Part shown: positions 2,718 to 28,598 of the stretch, one piece after another
Position numbering within the stretch: position 1 is the first letter of the stretch
Layout of the letters: the number at the start of each line of letters is the position of its first letter
Origin: Acidimicrobiales bacterium
GTDB taxonomy: Bacteria > Actinomycetota > Acidimicrobiia > Acidimicrobiales > RAAP-2
Length of the DNA: 47,134 nucleotides
Reading direction: 5' to 3'
NCBI GenBank assembly: GCA_017883025.1
Contig: JADGOH010000059.1
Span: forward strand, 1 to 47,134
Program-made: the position numbers and the translations under genes
Notes under the pieces: model-generated
The model's database searches: none
What the model saw: only the letters and a program-made list of their open reading frames with translations
What the model was told of the DNA's origin: nothing

Positions 2718-5700
2718 TCAGCCGGGGTCGGTGACGTCCGTGACGCCGCGGGCGTCCGGAACAGCCAACGGCGACGGTGACGGCGGCGCCTCAGGTGCCG
2801 GCCCGTCGGCCCCCGCCACCCGCACGCCGTCCTCGTCCCAGGCCACGATCGAGGCCAGGAACTCGTCCGTCTCGCGCTGGGCGGCGACCATCCGCTTCTC
2901 GGCACCGGCGGCCAGCAATCGGCCCAGCACCGGGATCTCCCACAGCGACTCGGCCCGCAGGATGGCCATGACCACGGGCACCAGGTGCTCGGCCGTGTCG
3001 AACACCACGAAGCGGGGGAGCCACTCCGGTTCGTACTTGGCATTGAACTTCCAGAGCGATTCGATCTGGGCGAAATTCGACAGGCGCTTGAGGAACCAGC
3101 GCTCGGCCCGCTGCATGGTCCCGTCGCCCTTTTCCCCGGCCAACGTGGAGCGCATGGCCGCGAAGTTGAGGCTGAGGCCGTCGAACCCGCGGGCGGCCAG
3201 ATGCTCGATGGTGGAGCAGAGGGCGAAGTCGAGGAGCCCGTTCGGGTGGTCGCCCGGGTCCCGGCGCATGAGGTCGAGTGAGAAGCCGTTGATGCCGGTC
3301 GCCGGCACGAACTGGCACATGGCCGCCGCCGTGCCGTCGGGGGTGCGTACGACGGTGAGCAGGAGCCCGGTGTCGCGCGGGTCGAAGACCCGTCCGAGCA
3401 TCATCGAGAACCCCCGCTCGTGCTCGCCCTGACGCGACAGGCGCATCAACGACGTGAGCTCCTCGACGAGCCCGGGGCCGATCTTGGCCGGGTCGTGGAA
3501 GGTGACGGTGTAGCCGTACTTCTGGATCCGGTTGTGGGCCTGGCGCAGGCCCTTCATGTGCTTGCCGGCAAGGCTGAATTCCTGGAGCTGCACCACGGCC
3601 TCGTCGCCCAGGTAGATGTGGTGCATGCCCGAGTCGCGGTAGGTGGGGAGCCACTGCTCACCGGCCCCCATGACCGCGGTGGTCCAGCCGTGGGAGTCCG
3701 CGAACGCCCGGAAGGCCCCCCACACCTGCTCGCGTTCGTTGCGGGGTCCGATCGGGTCGGGCGAGATCAGGCAGACGCCCCCGTAGACGGCGTAGGCCAC
3801 CAGGCTGTCCCGGTGGAAGAACCACCGCTTGTCCGACCGCAGGGCGAAGTAGTCGAGCGTCGTCGAGCCGTGCCGGCGGACGATATCGCGCGCCCGGAAC
3901 TCGGCGGCCCGGCCGGACCCGAGGCGGCGGTCGACCACCGGGCGGGTGAGCAGGTAGAGGGTGACCGCCACCAGGCACAGCCCGATGGTGAGGAGTGCGG
4001 GGGCGAGGAACCGGTCGGCCCGCTCGGGCAGGTCGATGGTGGTGATGCCGGCGAAGCGTTCGGAGACGGCCCAGAAGACCGTCCACCACGCCAGCGTCTG
4101 GCCGTGGTGGCCGACGTGGGTGAACAGCTCGATGGACACCGTGGTCAGCACGGCCACGCCGAGGGCCACGGCTGCCAGCGTGACCAGGGCGGAGCGCAGC
4201 GACGTGGCGTCGGAGGCGGACTGGAACTCCCTGCGGTTCACCAGGAGGAAGACCAGCACCGCCCCGGTGATCAGCGATTCCTCGACGTCGGCCCCGGCGA
4301 CGACGTGCAGGAGGATCGTGCCGGCCAGCAGCGCCACCGACACCCGCCACGCCCGCCGCTGACCCCGAAGGATGCCGCGTCCGAGGGCGATCAGGGCGAG
4401 TCCGGCCATGGCGACGAGGGCGCCGGCGGCCACGCTGGCCCGCACCGGCAGGTACTGCTCGAGCACGTGGAGGCGGCCGTGCAGGGGCGGGGTGATCGAG
4501 TCCAGTACGTCGATGATCCCGGTCACCAGGATGGCGGCCGCGCCCCACCGGCGGACCCGGCGGGTGCGGCGGTGGGACTGGCGCAGGTCGTCTGCCGGCG
4601 GCCACGAGGCGCCCACCGGGTAGGAGGCGACGAGGGACGGGTGCAGTGCCCCGCCGGCCCGGCCGCGGGTGACCACCCGCTCGAGGCGGCTCGGGGATGC
4701 CAACTCGTCGTGGGCGAGGAGCATCCGGACGTGCAGCTCGGCGCCGGACTCGAGCTCGACCCAGCTGACCCACCGGCTGTGCAGGAACACCGGGGGGAGG
4801 CCGAACCGGCCCCGGTGCTCGGCCACGACCTCGGTGGTCGCGCCCACGTTGGCGTAGAACCCGGTGCCGAGGTTGGTGAGCTCGGACTTGAAGGTCGCGG
4901 CGGTGACCAGCCCGGCGTAGCCCCGGGCCACCAGTCGGCGTGCGTCGTCCCGCGCCGTGTCGTTGGGGCCGGTGTCGGTACGCACCTCCTGGAGGGCACC
5001 GCCGCCCAGGATCGACCACATGCGGCGGCTCAAGAGGCCCAGGACCACGGCAAGGACGCCCAGGACGACGACGGACGCCCCGATGGCGACGACCAGCTGG
5101 TCCTGGAAGTCGGCGAAGTGGGCGTGGCGGATCGCCCGGGCGGGGAGCCCCGACCCGAGGTGCTGGAGGACCCACGGGGTGACGGCGATGCGCAGGAGCA
5201 GCGCCACACCGAAGGGCACCAGCAGCCACCATGCGTACCGGCCGAACCGGCGGTAGAGCGTGCGCGACACCAGGAACCGGGTCAGCGCCGACGGGTCGCT
5301 CAGGTGGTCGAGGCCTTCGAACCAGGGCGCGTCCTCGCCTGCCTCGGGCACCAGCGAGCGCCAGTGCCGGCCGGCCGCCGAGGTCGACACGGCTCCCGGC
5401 TTGGTGTCGGGGGTCGGATCCGCGGCGGGTCCGGTGTCGGCGATATCGTGCCCGACGACGGCAGCGCAGGCACCCGGGTGCACCCGCACCACCCGCACCC
5501 CCGTGCCCGTCTGGACGTGGAGATCGACCGCCCCGAGGTGCTCGACCCCGGCGGCGGCGAGCGTGGCCACCACATCGGACGCCCCGTCGGGCACGGTCCC
5601 GACCCGGCGGGCGAGGTCCTCGGGCTCGTGGCTGCCGCGCTGGCGGAGCACCCGGCGCTCGTCGATGCCGAGGAAGCGGATGAGCGATTCGGCCAGCGCC

Positions 5701-6014
5701 GGGTGGGCGTCGAGGGCGCGACCCGCAGTGGTCAGGGGGTCGTCGTCCCCGGTGAGGTCGAAGAGGTTGCCGGCGATGATCAGGATGCCCGGGCCGTCCC
5801 AGGTGTCGAGGGCCTGGGCCAGTTCGGCGGTGACGGCCAGGGTGGAGGGCGTGGCGTCGGGGGTCAGGAGGAGGTCGCTCACGACCATGACCCGCCGCCC
5901 TATGGGGACGTCGACCTGGGTGCCCCCCGGCTCGGGGGTGAATTGTGGGGTGCGGGCGGGCGGGCCGACGGGCTCGAGGTCGCTCGGGTCCTCGGTGTGG
6001 GTCGTCGTGCTCAC
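2718..6014 (-). CDS. MprF-like phosphatidylglycerol lysyltransferase-domain (DUF2156) membrane protein with N-terminal metallophosphoesterase-like domain
   Basis: C-terminal DUF2156 motifs (FHRDSLVAYAVYGGVCLISPDPIGPRNER; QEFSLAGKHMKGLRQAHNRIQKYGYTV), central TM helices, N-terminal MVVSDLLLTP...IIAGNLFDL...RGSHEPED resembling a degenerate calcineurin-like phosphoesterase. Confidence 0.75.
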   Translation of the reverse strand: MSTTTHTEDPSDLEPVGPPARTPQFTPEPGGTQVDVPIGRRVMVVSDLLLTPDATPSTLAVTAELAQALDTWDGPGILIIAGNLFDLTGDDDPLTTAGRALDAHPALAESLIRFLGIDERRVLRQRGSHEPEDLARRVGTVPDGASDVVATLAAAGVEHLGAVDLHVQTGTGVRVVRVHPGACAAVVGHDIADTGPAADPTPDTKPGAVSTSAAGRHWRSLVPEAGEDAPWFEGLDHLSDPSALTRFLVSRTLYRRFGRYAWWLLVPFGVALLLRIAVTPWVLQHLGSGLPARAIRHAHFADFQDQLVVAIGASVVVLGVLAVVLGLLSRRMWSILGGGALQEVRTDTGPNDTARDDARRLVARGYAGLVTAATFKSELTNLGTGFYANVGATTEVVAEHRGRFGLPPVFLHSRWVSWVELESGAELHVRMLLAHDELASPSRLERVVTRGRAGGALHPSLVASYPVGASWPPADDLRQSHRRTRRVRRWGAAAILVTGIIDVLDSITPPLHGRLHVLEQYLPVRASVAAGALVAMAGLALIALGRGILRGQRRAWRVSVALLAGTILLHVVAGADVEESLITGAVLVFLLVNRREFQSASDATSLRSALVTLAAVALGVAVLTTVSIELFTHVGHHGQTLAWWTVFWAVSERFAGITTIDLPERADRFLAPALLTIGLCLVAVTLYLLTRPVVDRRLGSGRAAEFRARDIVRRHGSTTLDYFALRSDKRWFFHRDSLVAYAVYGGVCLISPDPIGPRNEREQVWGAFRAFADSHGWTTAVMGAGEQWLPTYRDSGMHHIYLGDEAVVQLQEFSLAGKHMKGLRQAHNRIQKYGYTVTFHDPAKIGPGLVEELTSLMRLSRQGEHERGFSMMLGRVFDPRDTGLLLTVVRTPDGTAAAMCQFVPATGINGFSLDLMRRDPGDHPNGLLDFALCSTIEHLAARGFDGLSLNFAAMRSTLAGEKGDGTMQRAERWFLKRLSNFAQIESLWKFNAKYEPEWLPRFVVFDTAEHLVPVVMAILRAESLWEIPVLGRLLAAGAEKRMVAAQRETDEFLASIVAWDEDGVRVAGADGPAPEAPPSPSPLAVPDARGVTDVTDPG

Positions 6015-8115: not shown

Positions 8116-8604
8116 GTGGGGGACCCCGGGAACTGGTCCTGGCGAGACGGGCGGATCGAGCAACCGGGTGAGGCCGTGGTGTTCGATGTCGACGGGGTGC
8201 TGTCCGATGCCGTCGGCCGCCAGCACTTCCTCGAGCGGGGACGGCGCGACTGGGACGCATTCTTCGATGCCTGTGGCGAGGACGCCGTCATCGCCGAACT
8301 GGCCCGGGTGCTCGAGCTGCTCGACCCGAAGCTCCAGATCATCCTGCTGACGGGGCGTCCGATGCGGGTCCAGCCCCAGACGCTGGCCTGGCTCGAGCGC
8401 TACGACCTGCGGTGGGACCTGCTGGTCATGCGGTCGCGGGGGGACTACTCGCAGGTCACCTGGTACAAGCGCGACACCGTGGACGAACTGCGCCACTTCG
8501 GGTTCGACCTGCGCCTCGCCTTCGAGGACGACCCCAACAACTTCGCCATGTTCCACGCCATGGGCATTCCCTGCGTGTACATCCACTCCGGCTACTACGA
8601 GTAG
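8116..8604 (+). CDS. HAD-superfamily phosphatase, T4 polynucleotide kinase 3'-phosphatase-like
   Basis: VVFDVDGVLSD, ILLTGRP, GDYSQVTWYKRDTVDEL and FDLRLAFEDDPNN match HAD motifs I-IV and T4 Pnkp phosphatase-specific spacing; 2 nt after the acs stop. Confidence 0.65.
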   Translation: MGDPGNWSWRDGRIEQPGEAVVFDVDGVLSDAVGRQHFLERGRRDWDAFFDACGEDAVIAELARVLELLDPKLQIILLTGRPMRVQPQTLAWLERYDLRWDLLVMRSRGDYSQVTWYKRDTVDELRHFGFDLRLAFEDDPNNFAMFHAMGIPCVYIHSGYYE

Positions 8605-10313
8605 CGGCGGCCCCGGGCACGGGCGGCCAGCCACCACCCGGCGACCAGCGCGACGCCGGAGGCGAGCAGGACGGGCGTGTCGCCCAGGCGGACGTACAGC
8701 GTCCGACCGACCCGCCGCTGCAGGACGGCGGGGACGACCTGGCGCACACCCAGTGTCGAGCGTGCGAGAAGTGTCCCCCGGTTGGTGACCCATGCGCTGA
8801 ACCCGGTGGGCGCCGCCTGCAGCAGGTCCCGGCCCTGCTGGACGGCCTGGACCTCGCTGGCGGCGATCTCCTGAGTGGGGATCTGGCCGGTGGCGTAGGA
8901 GGAGGTGTTGGTGGGCACGACCAGCAGCTCCGCCCCGGCCCGCACCGGCGTCCGCCCCCGATCGGCGTAGAAGACCTCGAAGGAGATCATCGCCCCGAGC
9001 GGACCGGCCGGTGTGCGCAGCAGGCCGGTGCCGGTGCCGGGTACGGCGTCGCGTGGCACGGCCGACAGATCGCCGAGGCGGGCGAAGACCGACCGGTAGG
9101 GGACGTACTCGCCGAAGGGCACCCGGTGGACCTTCTCGTACCGGGAGACCACGGTGCCGTCGGGGCCGAAGGCGACGACCTCGTTGCGGAACGCGGCGTC
9201 CGACAGGGTCTCGGTCACCCCGACCACCAGGGTCGACCCGAGCCGGCGGGCCAGGGCGGACAGCGCCGCCTCCTCGGCCGAGCCGTCGAGGGGGCCGTCG
9301 AGCGAGACGACGTCCTCGGGCCACAGCACCAGACCGAGCGGCCGGCCGGCCGTGTGCCTGGCCAGCTGGTCGGTGGCGGCCACCGCCGCTGCCAGCACCG
9401 TCGCGGGGTCGACCTGGGACTTCCGGAAGCCGCGTTGGCCACCGCCCTGGACGGCCGCGGCCGTCACCGCCCCGACCGAGGCGCCCCCGTCGGGGGCGTG
9501 GGCGGCGGCCACTCCGGTCCCGAGGACGGCGGCCACCGCCACCGCCGCCACGCCGACGAGGCTGCCGAGCCCGGCCACGGCCCCACGCCACGGTGCGGGC
9601 GCCGTCGGGTCGTCGGCGGTGCGGCGGAACTCGGCCACCCGCCGGTGGTCGCGCACCGCCAGGGCCACGGCGGTGCCGGCGGCCCCGAGGGCCACGCCAC
9701 CGAGGTACACGAGGGCGGTAAGGGCGAGCGGCCCGCCGAGGCGCGCCGTCCCGAGCAGGGGCCCGTCGGCCTGTCCGAGGAAGACCCCGCCGATCGGGAG
9801 CCCGCCGAATGGCCAGCCCTGGCGTGCCGCCTCGGCGAGGGTCATGGCGGCGGGGAAGGCCAGCGCCCGGGCCCATACCGGCCCGCGTGGGACGGCCAGG
9901 CAGGCGACGCCGACGAAGACCGCTTCGGTGGCGATCAGCACGGCCGCACCGAGCAGGGTGAAGGCACGGGCGAACATGAGGCCGGGCACGTAGCACCCGA
10001 GCCCGGCCAGCCATCCGGCCCACAGCCGGGTCCGTGATCGCAGCCCGGCGAGCCGCCACCACAGCAGCCCGGCGGCGGGGAAGGCGAAGACCCAGAAGCC
10101 CCACGGGGGGAGCGACAGCGCCAGGCCGACCCCGGCGGCCACGGCGGGCAGTGCCACCCCGCCCCGCCGGGGGACGACGATGCCCGACCGGTCGGCCACC
10201 ATCGTCACCCGGGACGGCCGCCACGGCGGGCGGTCGTCGCCGGCCGTGGCGGCGACGACCCCGGGCGCACCCGGGTCGGGCCGCGCCCCCGGGCCCGGCG
10301 ACCCCGGGTTCAT
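8595..10313 (-). CDS. lnt: Apolipoprotein N-acyltransferase (nitrilase-fold), Cys-to-Ser variant at the nucleophile position
   Basis: TM-rich N-terminus (SLPPWGFWVFAFPAAGLLWW), LVLWPEDV (Glu), YEKVHRVPFGEYVPYR (Lys), MISFEVFYAD at the usual ICYE position. ATG at 10313 overlaps the hemG stop (ATGA). Confidence 0.85.
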   Translation of the reverse strand: MNPGSPGPGARPDPGAPGVVAATAGDDRPPWRPSRVTMVADRSGIVVPRRGGVALPAVAAGVGLALSLPPWGFWVFAFPAAGLLWWRLAGLRSRTRLWAGWLAGLGCYVPGLMFARAFTLLGAAVLIATEAVFVGVACLAVPRGPVWARALAFPAAMTLAEAARQGWPFGGLPIGGVFLGQADGPLLGTARLGGPLALTALVYLGGVALGAAGTAVALAVRDHRRVAEFRRTADDPTAPAPWRGAVAGLGSLVGVAAVAVAAVLGTGVAAAHAPDGGASVGAVTAAAVQGGGQRGFRKSQVDPATVLAAAVAATDQLARHTAGRPLGLVLWPEDVVSLDGPLDGSAEEAALSALARRLGSTLVVGVTETLSDAAFRNEVVAFGPDGTVVSRYEKVHRVPFGEYVPYRSVFARLGDLSAVPRDAVPGTGTGLLRTPAGPLGAMISFEVFYADRGRTPVRAGAELLVVPTNTSSYATGQIPTQEIAASEVQAVQQGRDLLQAAPTGFSAWVTNRGTLLARSTLGVRQVVPAVLQRRVGRTLYVRLGDTPVLLASGVALVAGWWLAARARGRRYS

Positions 10314-11848
10314 CACACCGGTGCGGTCGGCGGCGCCCCGTCGAGCGACGCCAGCACCACACGGGCGGCGGCGCGGCCGCTGCCCACGACGGCCGGGATC
10401 CCGACGCCGCGGTAGGCGCTGCCGGCCACGGCGACCCCGGGCAGCTCGGCCACGGCCTGCTCGACGCGGTCGGACCGGGCGAGGTGCCCCGGCGTGTACT
10501 GCGGGAAGGCACCGTGCCACCGGGTCACCAGCGACTCGCTGGGGCGACCGTCGATGCCGAGGATGCGGGCCAGCTCCTCGAAGGCGGCGGCCGTCAGCTC
10601 GTCGTCGTCGATCGAGTCGGGGCGCTCGTCGCCGAACCGGCCGACCGACAGCCGGATCAGCTCGTCCCCTGGACGAGCCAGGCCCGGCCACTTCCGGGTC
10701 AGGTAGGTGCAACCGGTGATGAGCGCCGTCCGCCCACCCACAGGCGACGTCCGGGGGACGAGGAACCCGGTCCCCACGAGCTCGCCCCGGATGGCCCTGG
10801 ATGGCACGGCCAGGGTCACCACCGAGACCGACGAGTGACGGATGTCCCCCAGGACGGCGGCCGCCCGGGGCGCGTGGTCGGCCAGCAGTCCCGACGCCTG
10901 GCCGGCGGGCACGGCCAGGATGACCCCGTCCACGGCGAGCGTCCGGGCGGCGTCGGAGGGGCCCGAGGCGCCGGGCACCGATGCGGTGTCCCCGGCCAGG
11001 GTCAGTTCCCAGGCGGGGCCGCCCGTCGCGTCGTCGGCCCGCCGCACGAGGGCCTCCACGGCGACACCGGTGTGGACGGCGACGCCGCGGGCGACGAGGG
11101 CGGCGGTCAGTTCGGCCGGGAGCCGGGCGGCTGTGCCGTCGAGGGACCAGAAGACCGGCGACGGCGCCCCGGACGGATCAGGCGGCGGGGTCGCCGGCAG
11201 GCGGAGCCGCCGCATGAGGCTGCCCGCCTGTCGGTCGGCCGACAGTAGCGGAGGGAACGTGGCCTCGGCACTCAGGTCGTCGACCCCGCCGGCGTGGATC
11301 CCGCCGATGAGCGGGTCGACCAGGCGCTCGGTGACCTCGTGGCCGAGCCGGGCGGTGACCACGCCGCCGACGGCGCGGTCACCGGCGGCTGCCGGATCGG
11401 CGCGATGGGGTCGCACCAGGTCGAGCGCGGCGCGGGCTGCGCCCGCGTGCCCGAGGATGCCGGACCGGGCGAGTGGCCACCACCGGGTGGGGACGCCCAG
11501 GTTGACGCCGTCCGGCATCATCCGCAGCCGTCCCCGGGCCCACAGGGCGGCGCCCGACGTCCCCGGGGCGACGAGTGCATCGGTCAGGCCGAGCTCGGCG
11601 CACAGTCCGGTGGCCTCCGGTCGACGGGCGAGGAAGGCGTCCGCAGCCAGGTCGACCTGGCGTCCGGCGAACTCGGTGGACCGCACCTTGCCGCCGGTCC
11701 GAGCGCCTGCCTCCAGCACCAGCACGCGGGCGGTGCCGTCGGCGGGCGCGCCGAGGTCCTGGCTGAGTTGCCATGCCGCCGCCAGCCCGGCCATGCCGCC
11801 GCCCACGACGGCCACCACCGGCTGCCTGCCGTCGTGGCCCGTGGTCAT
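10313..11848 (-). CDS. hemG: Protoporphyrinogen/coproporphyrinogen III oxidase (HemY-type flavoprotein)
   Basis: VVAVVGGGMAGLAAAWQL FAD motif, C-terminal GVAVAGSAYRGVGIPAVVGSGRAAA; lies in the hem cluster. Confidence 0.9.
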   Translation of the reverse strand: MTTGHDGRQPVVAVVGGGMAGLAAAWQLSQDLGAPADGTARVLVLEAGARTGGKVRSTEFAGRQVDLAADAFLARRPEATGLCAELGLTDALVAPGTSGAALWARGRLRMMPDGVNLGVPTRWWPLARSGILGHAGAARAALDLVRPHRADPAAAGDRAVGGVVTARLGHEVTERLVDPLIGGIHAGGVDDLSAEATFPPLLSADRQAGSLMRRLRLPATPPPDPSGAPSPVFWSLDGTAARLPAELTAALVARGVAVHTGVAVEALVRRADDATGGPAWELTLAGDTASVPGASGPSDAARTLAVDGVILAVPAGQASGLLADHAPRAAAVLGDIRHSSVSVVTLAVPSRAIRGELVGTGFLVPRTSPVGGRTALITGCTYLTRKWPGLARPGDELIRLSVGRFGDERPDSIDDDELTAAAFEELARILGIDGRPSESLVTRWHGAFPQYTPGHLARSDRVEQAVAELPGVAVAGSAYRGVGIPAVVGSGRAAARVVLASLDGAPPTAPV

Positions 11849-12792
11849 GGTGCGGCGTCCGCCGCCGCCCGCACCACGTCGGCCAGCATCGCCAGGAACG
11901 CGGGGTCGTCATTGAGCGACGGGGTCCGGGCGAAGGCGATCCCGAGGGCGTCGGCCTTGTCGAGCGCCTCGATGTCGAGGTCGTAGAGGACCTCGAGGTG
12001 GTCGGAGACGAAGCCGACCGGGCACACCACGACGGCGGTGGCGCCCTCGGCTGCCACCCGCTCCATCTCCAGCAGCAGGTCGGGCCCGATCCACGGGTCG
12101 GCCGTGCGGCCGGCGCTCTGCCAGGCGGTGCCCCAGGTGACGCTCGGGTCGGCGTCGAGGTCGAGCTCCCGGGCGATGTCGGCCCCCGACTCCGTCACCT
12201 GGTCCGGGTAGGGGTCGCCCTGGGCCACCACACGCTGGGGGAGACTGTGCGCCGTGAAGAACACCGCCACCTTCACCCGGGCGGCCACGTCGAGGGCGTC
12301 GAGGACGGCACGGGTCCGGGCGGCCAGGAGGGGGACGAATTCCGGGGCCCGGTGCCACGACGGGATCACGGTCAGGGCGAGTGGCGTGCCCGCGGCAGCG
12401 GCTGCTGCCTCGGCCCGCTCGAAGTACTCGCCCGAGCCCATCGTCGACTGGTGCGGGGTGAGGACCACGCCGACGATGCGGTCGACGCCCAGGCCGGCCA
12501 GCTCGGCCACGCCCTCCTCGATGGTCGGCGCCACGTACTTGGTGCCGAGGCGGACGGCGAAGCGCCCCGGTTCGGTGGCCTCGAGGGCGGCGGCCAGCCC
12601 TTCGACCTGGGCACGCGTGCGTCCGGTCAGGGGCGAGGTGCCCCCGATCGCCTCGTAACGACCGGTGAGCTCGGCGAGCAGCTCGGGCGTGGGCGGCCGG
12701 CCCCGGCGGATCCGGGTGTAGAAGGCCTCGATCTCCTCCGGCGTGTCCGGTGTCCCGTGCGCCATCACCAGGACACCCGTGGGGGCCGTCAC
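11845..12792 (-). CDS. hemH: Ferrochelatase (coproporphyrin/protoporphyrin)
   Basis: GVLVMAHGTPDTPEEI, FTAHSLPQRV (catalytic His), VVVCPVGFVSDHLEVLYDLD (catalytic Glu). GTG start at 12792 overlaps the hemE stop (GTGA). Confidence 0.92.
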   Translation of the reverse strand: MTAPTGVLVMAHGTPDTPEEIEAFYTRIRRGRPPTPELLAELTGRYEAIGGTSPLTGRTRAQVEGLAAALEATEPGRFAVRLGTKYVAPTIEEGVAELAGLGVDRIVGVVLTPHQSTMGSGEYFERAEAAAAAAGTPLALTVIPSWHRAPEFVPLLAARTRAVLDALDVAARVKVAVFFTAHSLPQRVVAQGDPYPDQVTESGADIARELDLDADPSVTWGTAWQSAGRTADPWIGPDLLLEMERVAAEGATAVVVCPVGFVSDHLEVLYDLDIEALDKADALGIAFARTPSLNDDPAFLAMLADVVRAAADAAP

Positions 12793-13877
12793 GTCGGCTC
12801 CACCCCGGCCCGGCCCTCGGCGTGGACGAGCTCGACGATGCGCTCGAGGATGGCGGGATCGGTCTCGGGCAGCACGCCGTGACCCAGGTTGAACACGTGG
12901 CCGGGGGCCGTGCCCGCCCGGGTGAGGACCTCGCGGGTCTCGGCCGCGGCCACCTCCCACCTGCCGAGGCACATGGCGGGGTCGAGGTTGCCCTGGACGG
13001 CCGTGCCCGGGCCGACCCGGGTGCGCGCCACGTCGAGGGGGACCCGCCAGTCGATGCCGACGACCGACGTGCCGGCCGTCGCCATCAGCGGGAGGAGCTC
13101 GCCCGTGCCGACGCCGAAGAGGATGGTCGGGACGCCCGGGTGCGACTCACCCAGTTCGGCGACCAGGCGTCGGGTCGCGGGCAGGACCAGCTCCTCGTAG
13201 TGACGGGGCGTGAGGATTCCGGCCCAGCTGTCGAACACCTGCACGGCGGAGGCCCCGGCGTCGAGCTGGGACCGAAGGGACGCCAGCGCCATGTCGGTCA
13301 GCCGCTCGACGAGGGCGTCCCACAGTGCGGGCTCGGCCTGCATCAGGGCCTTGACCTTGGTGAAGTTCTTGGACGGGCCGCCCTCTACCAGGTAGCTGGC
13401 CACGGTGAACGGACCGCCGGCGAATCCGATGAGCGGCACATCGAGCGATCCGGCCAGGATCTGCACCGCCTCGATGACGTAGGGGGTGTCGAGCTCGGGT
13501 TCGAGCGGGCGCAGCCGCTGCAGGTCGGCTGCCGAGCGGAACGGCTCGGACACCACCGGTCCCGTGCCCGGGGCCACGTCGACGCCGAAGCCGACGGCCG
13601 CGGCCGGCACCACGATGTCGCTGAAGAAGATGGCGGCGTCGGTGCCGTAGCGGTCGACGGGCTGACGGGTCAGCTCGGCCACCAGCTCCGGCTGGGCGAT
13701 GGCGTCGAGGATGCTGCCCGGTCCCCGGGCAGCCCGGTACTCGGGCAGGGACCGTCCGGCCTGGCGCATGAACCAGACCGGCACGTGGTGCACGGGCTGG
13801 CTGCGGCACGCCTGGATGAACGGGGCGTCGTCGAAGCGACCGGGCGCGCGTGACGCGCGGGGCGCGGCGGTGGACAT
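12789..13877 (-). CDS. hemE: Uroporphyrinogen decarboxylase
   Basis: HVPVWFMRQAGRSLPEYR signature, FFSDIVVPAAAVG, GFAGGPFTVASYLVEGG, NLGHGVLPETDP. Confidence 0.95.
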   Translation of the reverse strand: MSTAAPRASRAPGRFDDAPFIQACRSQPVHHVPVWFMRQAGRSLPEYRAARGPGSILDAIAQPELVAELTRQPVDRYGTDAAIFFSDIVVPAAAVGFGVDVAPGTGPVVSEPFRSAADLQRLRPLEPELDTPYVIEAVQILAGSLDVPLIGFAGGPFTVASYLVEGGPSKNFTKVKALMQAEPALWDALVERLTDMALASLRSQLDAGASAVQVFDSWAGILTPRHYEELVLPATRRLVAELGESHPGVPTILFGVGTGELLPLMATAGTSVVGIDWRVPLDVARTRVGPGTAVQGNLDPAMCLGRWEVAAAETREVLTRAGTAPGHVFNLGHGVLPETDPAILERIVELVHAEGRAGVEPT

Positions 13878-27626: not shown

Positions 27627-27630
<4 letters not shown>

Positions 27631-28598
27631 AGGGAACCCTTCTTCGAGGAGGGCGCAGCGAGGGCGTTGGACGGTGTCACGTGGGTGTAGGGCGGGGGCG
27701 TGTTGGCCTCCGACTGGGGCTCGCGCTGCAGCGTGTGGCCCGCCGCGACCTCACCGGACAGCCACGTCTGGAACGCGGCGGGGGTGACGGCCTTCACGCT
27801 GAACAGCATCTCGGTGTGGTACAGCCCGCAGATCTGGGTGCACTGGCCGGCGTAGGTGCCGGTGTGGAGGATGTCGAGGTCGAAGAAGTTGGTCACGCCG
27901 GGCAGCGCGTACCGGCTGAAATTGAAGTCCCGCACGTAGAAGCCGTGGATCACGTCGTTCGACACCAGCGTGACCTGGACGGTCTCACCGACGGGCAGGA
28001 CCATCTGGGGCCCGTGGCCGCCGGGGCCGTTGGTGACGTCACCGGCGATCGAGACGTTGTGGTCCGGGTAGCTGAAGCGCCATCCCCACTGGAATGCCGT
28101 GACCCTGACGTGCTCGACGGGGGTCCCGGTCGAGGTCACGGTGGCGTTCACCGGGACGGTGGCGTCCACGTTGTTCTCGGTGAGGACGGTGAACAGGAAG
28201 AGGAAGGCCACGACGAGCACCGGGATGCCGGTGTACAGGATCTCGATCGGGATGCTCTCGTGGAACTGCTTCGGCATCTCCTCCGAGCGGCGGCGGTAGC
28301 GGAGGATCGTGAACAGGATCAGCAGGCCGACGAAGACGCCGATGATGACGCCCGTCGTCATCATGCCGGAGAAGAGCTTGAAGGTGTCCTGGCCCTGCTT
28401 GGTGGCGCCCCGGCTGGCCCCGTAGGACGGGTACATGTTGCACCCGCCCAGGACGAGCGGCGCGGCGACTGCCGCGCCGACGGCGGGCCTGGCCCAGCGG
28501 CGCCGACGGGGCGTGGCCGCCACCTCGGCCGCAGGGTCTGCACCCGTGTGCTCGTGTGCGGGCAGGGACGTCGGAGATCCGTTTGTGAAGGCGTTCAC
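27627..28598 (-). CDS. ctaC: Cytochrome c oxidase subunit II (CuA site variant)
   Basis: Lipobox-like LVLGGCNMY, cupredoxin domain, [18 protein letters not shown] CuA loop. Confidence 0.93.

Follow-up and report, generated by a model that had tools for sequence, protein, structure and literature searches.

A gene in the window (the whole 47,134-nucleotide stretch of DNA analysed here) encodes a full-length homologue of apolipoprotein N-acyltransferase (Lnt) that carries serine at the position of the catalytic cysteine, and we consider it probable, judging from its sequence and predicted structure, that this protein is a working Lnt that uses a serine nucleophile and an O-ester intermediate and would go on to N-acyl transfer. 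Lnt adds the third fatty acid to lipoproteins and is described as needing a cysteine that forms a thioester. We give slightly better than even weight to the broader proposition that serine-type Lnts are bona fide N-acyltransferases acting through an oxyester, with at least four origins in Actinomycetota and a place as the sole Lnt of their clades, cysteine and thioester not being required. The cysteine-to-serine substitution itself is already known from mycobacterial BCG_2279c, a published precedent to which the original prediction did not refer; new here is that an order, and other clades too, have a serine form as their single Lnt and that this form arose several times.

The features of the gene and its surroundings are collected in Table 1, and residues are numbered throughout on the 572-residue protein. 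The ATG of lnt shares bases with the TGA that ends the hemG-like gene upstream of it (TGATG), and the minus strand around the nucleophile codon reads ...ATG-ATC-TCC-TTC-GAG.... This reading, together with alignment, confirms the original prediction of a serine codon at the catalytic cysteine position: when the protein was compared with solved structures by phmmer, Ser444 fell in the column of residue 387 of E. coli Lnt, the column that the prediction had proposed to align. The best phmmer match was the C387S mutant structure 5vrh, with serine opposite serine, and in 6nwr the same column holds cysteine. The glutamate and lysine motifs (LVLWPED and YEKVHRVPFGE), which had been described as intact, are both present.

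Table 1. Coordinates of the lnt homologue, its catalytic residues and domains, and associated features of the window.
Feature	Position	Strand	Basis or remark
lnt homologue	8595..10313	-	572 aa, from translation; homologues match from residue 1
TCC codon, Ser444, equivalent to catalytic Cys387 of E. coli Lnt	8982..8984	-	Alignment to solved Lnt; helix start in model
Glu333 (LVLWPED), equivalent to E. coli Glu267, triad general base	9315..9317	-	Alignment
Lys394 (YEKVHRVPFGE), equivalent to E. coli Lys335	9132..9134	-	Alignment
Glu402 (YEKVHRVPFGE), equivalent to E. coli Glu343, proposed fourth catalytic residue	9108..9110	-	Alignment
Glu446, equivalent to E. coli Glu389, essential in E. coli	8976..8978	-	Conservation in order
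N-terminal membrane domain LNT_N (PF20154)	9693..10136	-	Pfam, 3e-16, above cut-off
CN_hydrolase (nitrilase-like) domain (PF00795)	8718..9461	-	Pfam, above cut-off
hemG-like oxidoreductase, directly upstream of lnt	10313..11848	-	PF01593
Heme operon hemE-hemH-hemG-lnt, lnt last	10313-13877 plus lnt	-	hemH by sequence reading only
Cytochrome c oxidase subunit II (PF00116, PF02790)	27627-28598	-	Basic signal peptide and lipobox LVLGGC

The window protein scored 153.1 bits against TIGR00546, the NCBIfam lnt equivalog, for which the cut-off is 132.9. An AlphaFold model built from a 67-row alignment (mean pLDDT 90.7, pTM 0.90) placed Ser444 as the first residue of a helix, directly after a strand, and the 24 best PDB fold matches were all Lnt, ranked before any soluble nitrilase (highest TM 0.72 by query, 0.82 by target). 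We rejected identity as a soluble amidase or nitrilase of the nitrilase superfamily because the membrane domain is present and the best profile and fold matches are Lnt. Profile, full-length fold, the glutamate and lysine of the triad, the Glu343 and Glu389 equivalents and the substrate pathway all agree with membership in Lnt, but Ser444 stands where the family has its cysteine nucleophile. We conclude that the gene product is a full-length Lnt homologue, and we file it as an Lnt variant and not as a standard member because the defining cysteine was tested and is absent. The protein resembles the E. coli and P. aeruginosa enzymes (Glu267-Lys335-Cys387) in its full-length fold, its membrane and nitrilase domains and its Glu, Lys, Glu343 and Glu389 equivalents, and differs from them in its serine nucleophile, its heme-operon context and an identity of only about 20%; E. 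coli Trp237 had no aligned residue in the window protein in this alignment.

We collected relatives by whole-genome search, direct retrieval and a scan of named genomes, the matches from the last being labelled nearly all as Acidimicrobiaceae, Acidimicrobiales, Acidimicrobiia or Actinomycetes. Serine occupied the nucleophile position in 147 of 148 Acidimicrobiales Lnt rows (a set that includes duplicates, as some species are present in both collections), in the motif [IVL]S[FYW]E. ISWE-type motifs, vaguely remembered for related Acidimicrobiia when the gene was first described, were indeed seen. The remaining catalytic residues are kept almost without exception: the Glu267 equivalent in 146/146 rows with a letter there, Lys335 in 146/147, Glu343 in 147/147 and Glu389 in 147/148. 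Ser444, Glu333, Lys394, Glu402 and Glu446 are all invariant in the 67-row order alignment. With the same serine in all but one of the rows of the order and the other catalytic residues intact, the view that the substitution is not random decay holds. One Acidimicrobiales copy, L087 (DAHXND010000133.1), has cysteine at the nucleophile together with Lys335 changed to Glu and Glu389 changed to Asp, and is possibly a dead or error-bearing copy.

Outside the order, Lnt is of the cysteine type in most families across the class and phylum. In the complete set, order members included, 294 homologues had a letter in the nucleophile column, and it was always cysteine (121) or serine (173). Serine types occur in family f70 (motif ISFEGDF), in f40/45/48/51/56/59/60 of the same class (ISFEGAF) and in f100/f107 (VSWEVTF). 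Two f92 genomes carry a second, serine copy (VSYEATF, ISFETLF) beside a cysteine type with the motif TCWEVIFD, a pair that resembles mycobacterial BCG_2070c/BCG_2279c; we infer that f92 is mycobacterial. In trees built without the nucleophile-motif columns, the serine groups took separate, well-supported positions requiring six changes (FastTree) or seven changes, four of them forced by strong branches (IQ-TREE with a mixture model). Constraining all serine forms together cost 280 log-likelihood units (AU test, p-AU 4e-6). Both trees and the AU test reject a single ancient serine-Lnt paralogue shared with the mycobacteria-like second copy. We conclude from these phylogenies that serine replaced cysteine in Actinomycetota on at least four separate occasions; we claim only this minimum because f100/f107 pair with the ISFEG group as sisters in just one of the two trees. 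Two cysteine forms nested inside serine clades, L087 and L158, look like reversals in the trees.

Two further observations concern the distribution of these proteins. An Acidimicrobiales-type serine Lnt, L210, lies in a genome of another order (G087, f50 g109), whose same-genus genome G133 has a cysteine type (L147); it is either a lateral transfer or a misbinned contig. The class-level serine clade (e.g. L295 and L193) and f100/f107 (L299-L301) share an invariant cysteine pair, as in NSPCPRVHC, just past the nitrilase domain's first strand and near the E. coli Trp237 loop. The pair, which perhaps forms a disulfide, is also kept in L158, whose nucleophile is cysteine.

Whole-genome searches found exactly one Lnt in 43 of 44 Acidimicrobiales genomes, the home genome among the 43; the exception, G056, carries a second, cysteine-type copy (L059). 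The sole Lnt was of the serine type in all 39 single-copy genomes of the order in which the residue was read, and several of these serine-only genomes are single contigs, 95-99% complete. The home genome, an incomplete draft (71.65% complete, 178 contigs), has one Lnt-grade match, its two other CN-hydrolase matches scoring as ordinary nitrilase-family proteins. A second, cysteine-containing Lnt, for which the original prediction had suggested looking, was found neither in this 71.65%-complete genome nor in 42 of the 43 other genomes of the order. The enzymes that precede Lnt are in place: Lgt is present in 76/76 genomes tested, the home genome included, and LspA in 75/76, the one without it being the incomplete home genome. 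A search of 43 genomes for Lit, which could have stood in as an N-terminal acylating enzyme, gave no match. Within the window, the cytochrome c oxidase subunit II is, from its signal peptide and lipobox, a likely lipoprotein substrate.

The hemE-(hemH)-hemG-lnt neighbourhood is conserved among relatives: of 80 related loci, 67 have hemG close to lnt and 58 have hemE there. Elsewhere in the window (2718-6014, minus strand) lies a gene for a 1098-residue protein whose C-terminal end carries a phosphatidylglycerol lysyltransferase domain (PF09924); no strong Pfam match covers its long N-terminal portion. Seven genomes that are 96-99% complete (G022, G157, G216, G281 and G313 of f1 g10; G073 and G262 of f26) had no Lnt match and possess Lgt and LspA. 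Because these members of the family and order have Lgt and LspA but no Lnt, both Lnt and N-acylation are dispensable in parts of the order, which counts against the favoured reading.

For the serine enzyme we propose the following course of reaction. Glu333 would take the proton from the Ser444 hydroxyl, and Ser444 would attack the sn-1 ester of a phospholipid while Lys394 stabilises the oxyanion. The lyso-phospholipid would then depart, leaving an O-ester acyl-enzyme, and the free alpha-amine of the Lgt/LspA-processed lipoprotein cysteine would attack this ester to give the amide-linked third acyl chain. The first step is plausibly shared with E. coli C387S because that mutant is acylated as an oxygen ester, N-acyl transfer being undetectable in most assays (PMC6828757), a point against the full reaction; elsewhere the E. 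coli serine mutant is called low-activity (PMC10313180). The laboratory mutant (5vrh, 8b0m) has the same catalytic set of Glu, Lys and Ser, but it is an engineered protein that forms the oxyester with little or no transfer, whereas the natural enzymes have long evolved with serine and would complete the second step. We favour the completed reaction because no other Lnt accompanies the serine form, most of the order retains it in a conserved hem neighbourhood, and the serine arose repeatedly. Three readings were first offered for this gene: a serine-nucleophile Lnt, a changed acyl donor chemistry and a non-catalytic paralogue. With the serine order-wide, invariant in the 67 rows, located in the genome's single Lnt and seen in parallel origins, the first of these, taken as a trait of the clade, has the best support.

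Two residues of the second shell, Ser390 and Asn413 (E. coli numbering), are absent from all serine clades and common in cysteine clades; for position 390 there are only four well-supported independent pairs, too few for significance. Residue 411, close enough to Cys387 in E. coli Lnt for a hydrogen bond (PMC5500888), is Thr in the window protein and is no marker of serine enzymes, because it is Thr in most cysteine forms too.

That E. coli C387S performs step one and not step two (PMC6828757) would also fit a serine form that keeps only the first half-reaction, either remodelling lipids by phospholipase A1-like hydrolysis or acylating something different from the lipoprotein amine. AatD, the glycine N-acyltransferase of the Aat system, demonstrates that an Lnt homologue can change its acceptor, but AatD itself retained the cysteine nucleophile (PMC7943197). 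Lgt and LspA produce the usual acceptor, and every genome tested has both, save the incomplete home genome, in which LspA was missing; the Glu343 and Glu389 equivalents are retained as well. We therefore regard such a restricted activity as unlikely, although it is the alternative that survives best.

We think it less likely still that the protein is a non-catalytic Lnt, a pseudoenzyme serving as scaffold or accessory protein, as was proposed for BCG_2279c of M. bovis BCG. BCG_2279c has serine at the same position, does not compensate for loss of the cysteine enzyme BCG_2070c and was read by its authors as likely inactive (PMC3850990). Like BCG_2279c and Rv2262c-Rv2261c (the second Lnt homologue of slow-growing mycobacteria), the window protein has serine at 387 with the other triad residues kept, but the mycobacterial type uses an AGC codon and coexists with a working cysteine Lnt, whereas the window serine Lnt is the only copy. 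If L247 and L276 belong to the BCG_2279c type, as their genome partners suggest, that type has a separate origin nested among cysteine enzymes. We rejected assignment of the window protein to this second paralogue, given the single Lnt of the home genome and of 42 of the 43 others of the order and its separate place in the trees. In our literature search BCG_2279c was the only serine-nucleophile Lnt found, and no biochemical data on Acidimicrobiales Lnt were found.

Codon usage bears on the same question. The Acidimicrobiales serine codons comprise 82 TCC, 28 TCG, 13 TCA and 10 TCT, with AGC/AGT in 13 rows, and within the order the well-supported branches require no fewer than five switches between the TCN and AGY sets. 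No single silent change connects the two sets: the route runs via Thr or Cys, or two changes must occur together. Because each switch needs a non-silent intermediate or a double change, the codons indicate that serine is maintained by selection in Acidimicrobiales, which argues against a pseudoenzyme. So do the want of a partner copy in 43 of the 44 order genomes, the invariant triad partners, the restriction of the 294 homologues to cysteine or serine and the landing of every parallel origin on serine. A non-catalytic paralogue, raised in the original prediction, is accordingly disfavoured.

It is very improbable, and largely refuted, that a different cysteine serves as nucleophile or that the alignment is shifted: the invariant cysteine pair of the class-level ISFEG group and f100/f107 might suggest a relocated thiol, but an alignment survey found no conserved cysteine elsewhere in the Acidimicrobiales or f70 Lnt proteins, both cysteines of the window protein lie in its membrane domain, and Ser444 sits at the helix start of a confident model, aligned with residue 387. 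A sequencing or assembly error at the codon, or recent gene decay, might be suspected in so incomplete a draft and is refuted by serine in independent assemblies across the order, among them single-contig genomes and that of a named strain, Aciditerrimonas ferrireducens MV1.

If serine is indeed the nucleophile of the only Lnt in these environmentally common clades, the thioester would not be essential to the reaction. Lnt has been discussed as an antibacterial target, and E. coli Lnt is sensitive to inhibition by the thiol reagent MTSES; one would predict that thiol-directed inhibitors have no effect on the serine clades. These clades would also serve as natural replicates of the nucleophile exchange, in which one could find what lets an oxyester acylate an amine, and their existence as serine-only lineages would reopen the question of whether mycobacterial BCG_2279c is truly inactive.
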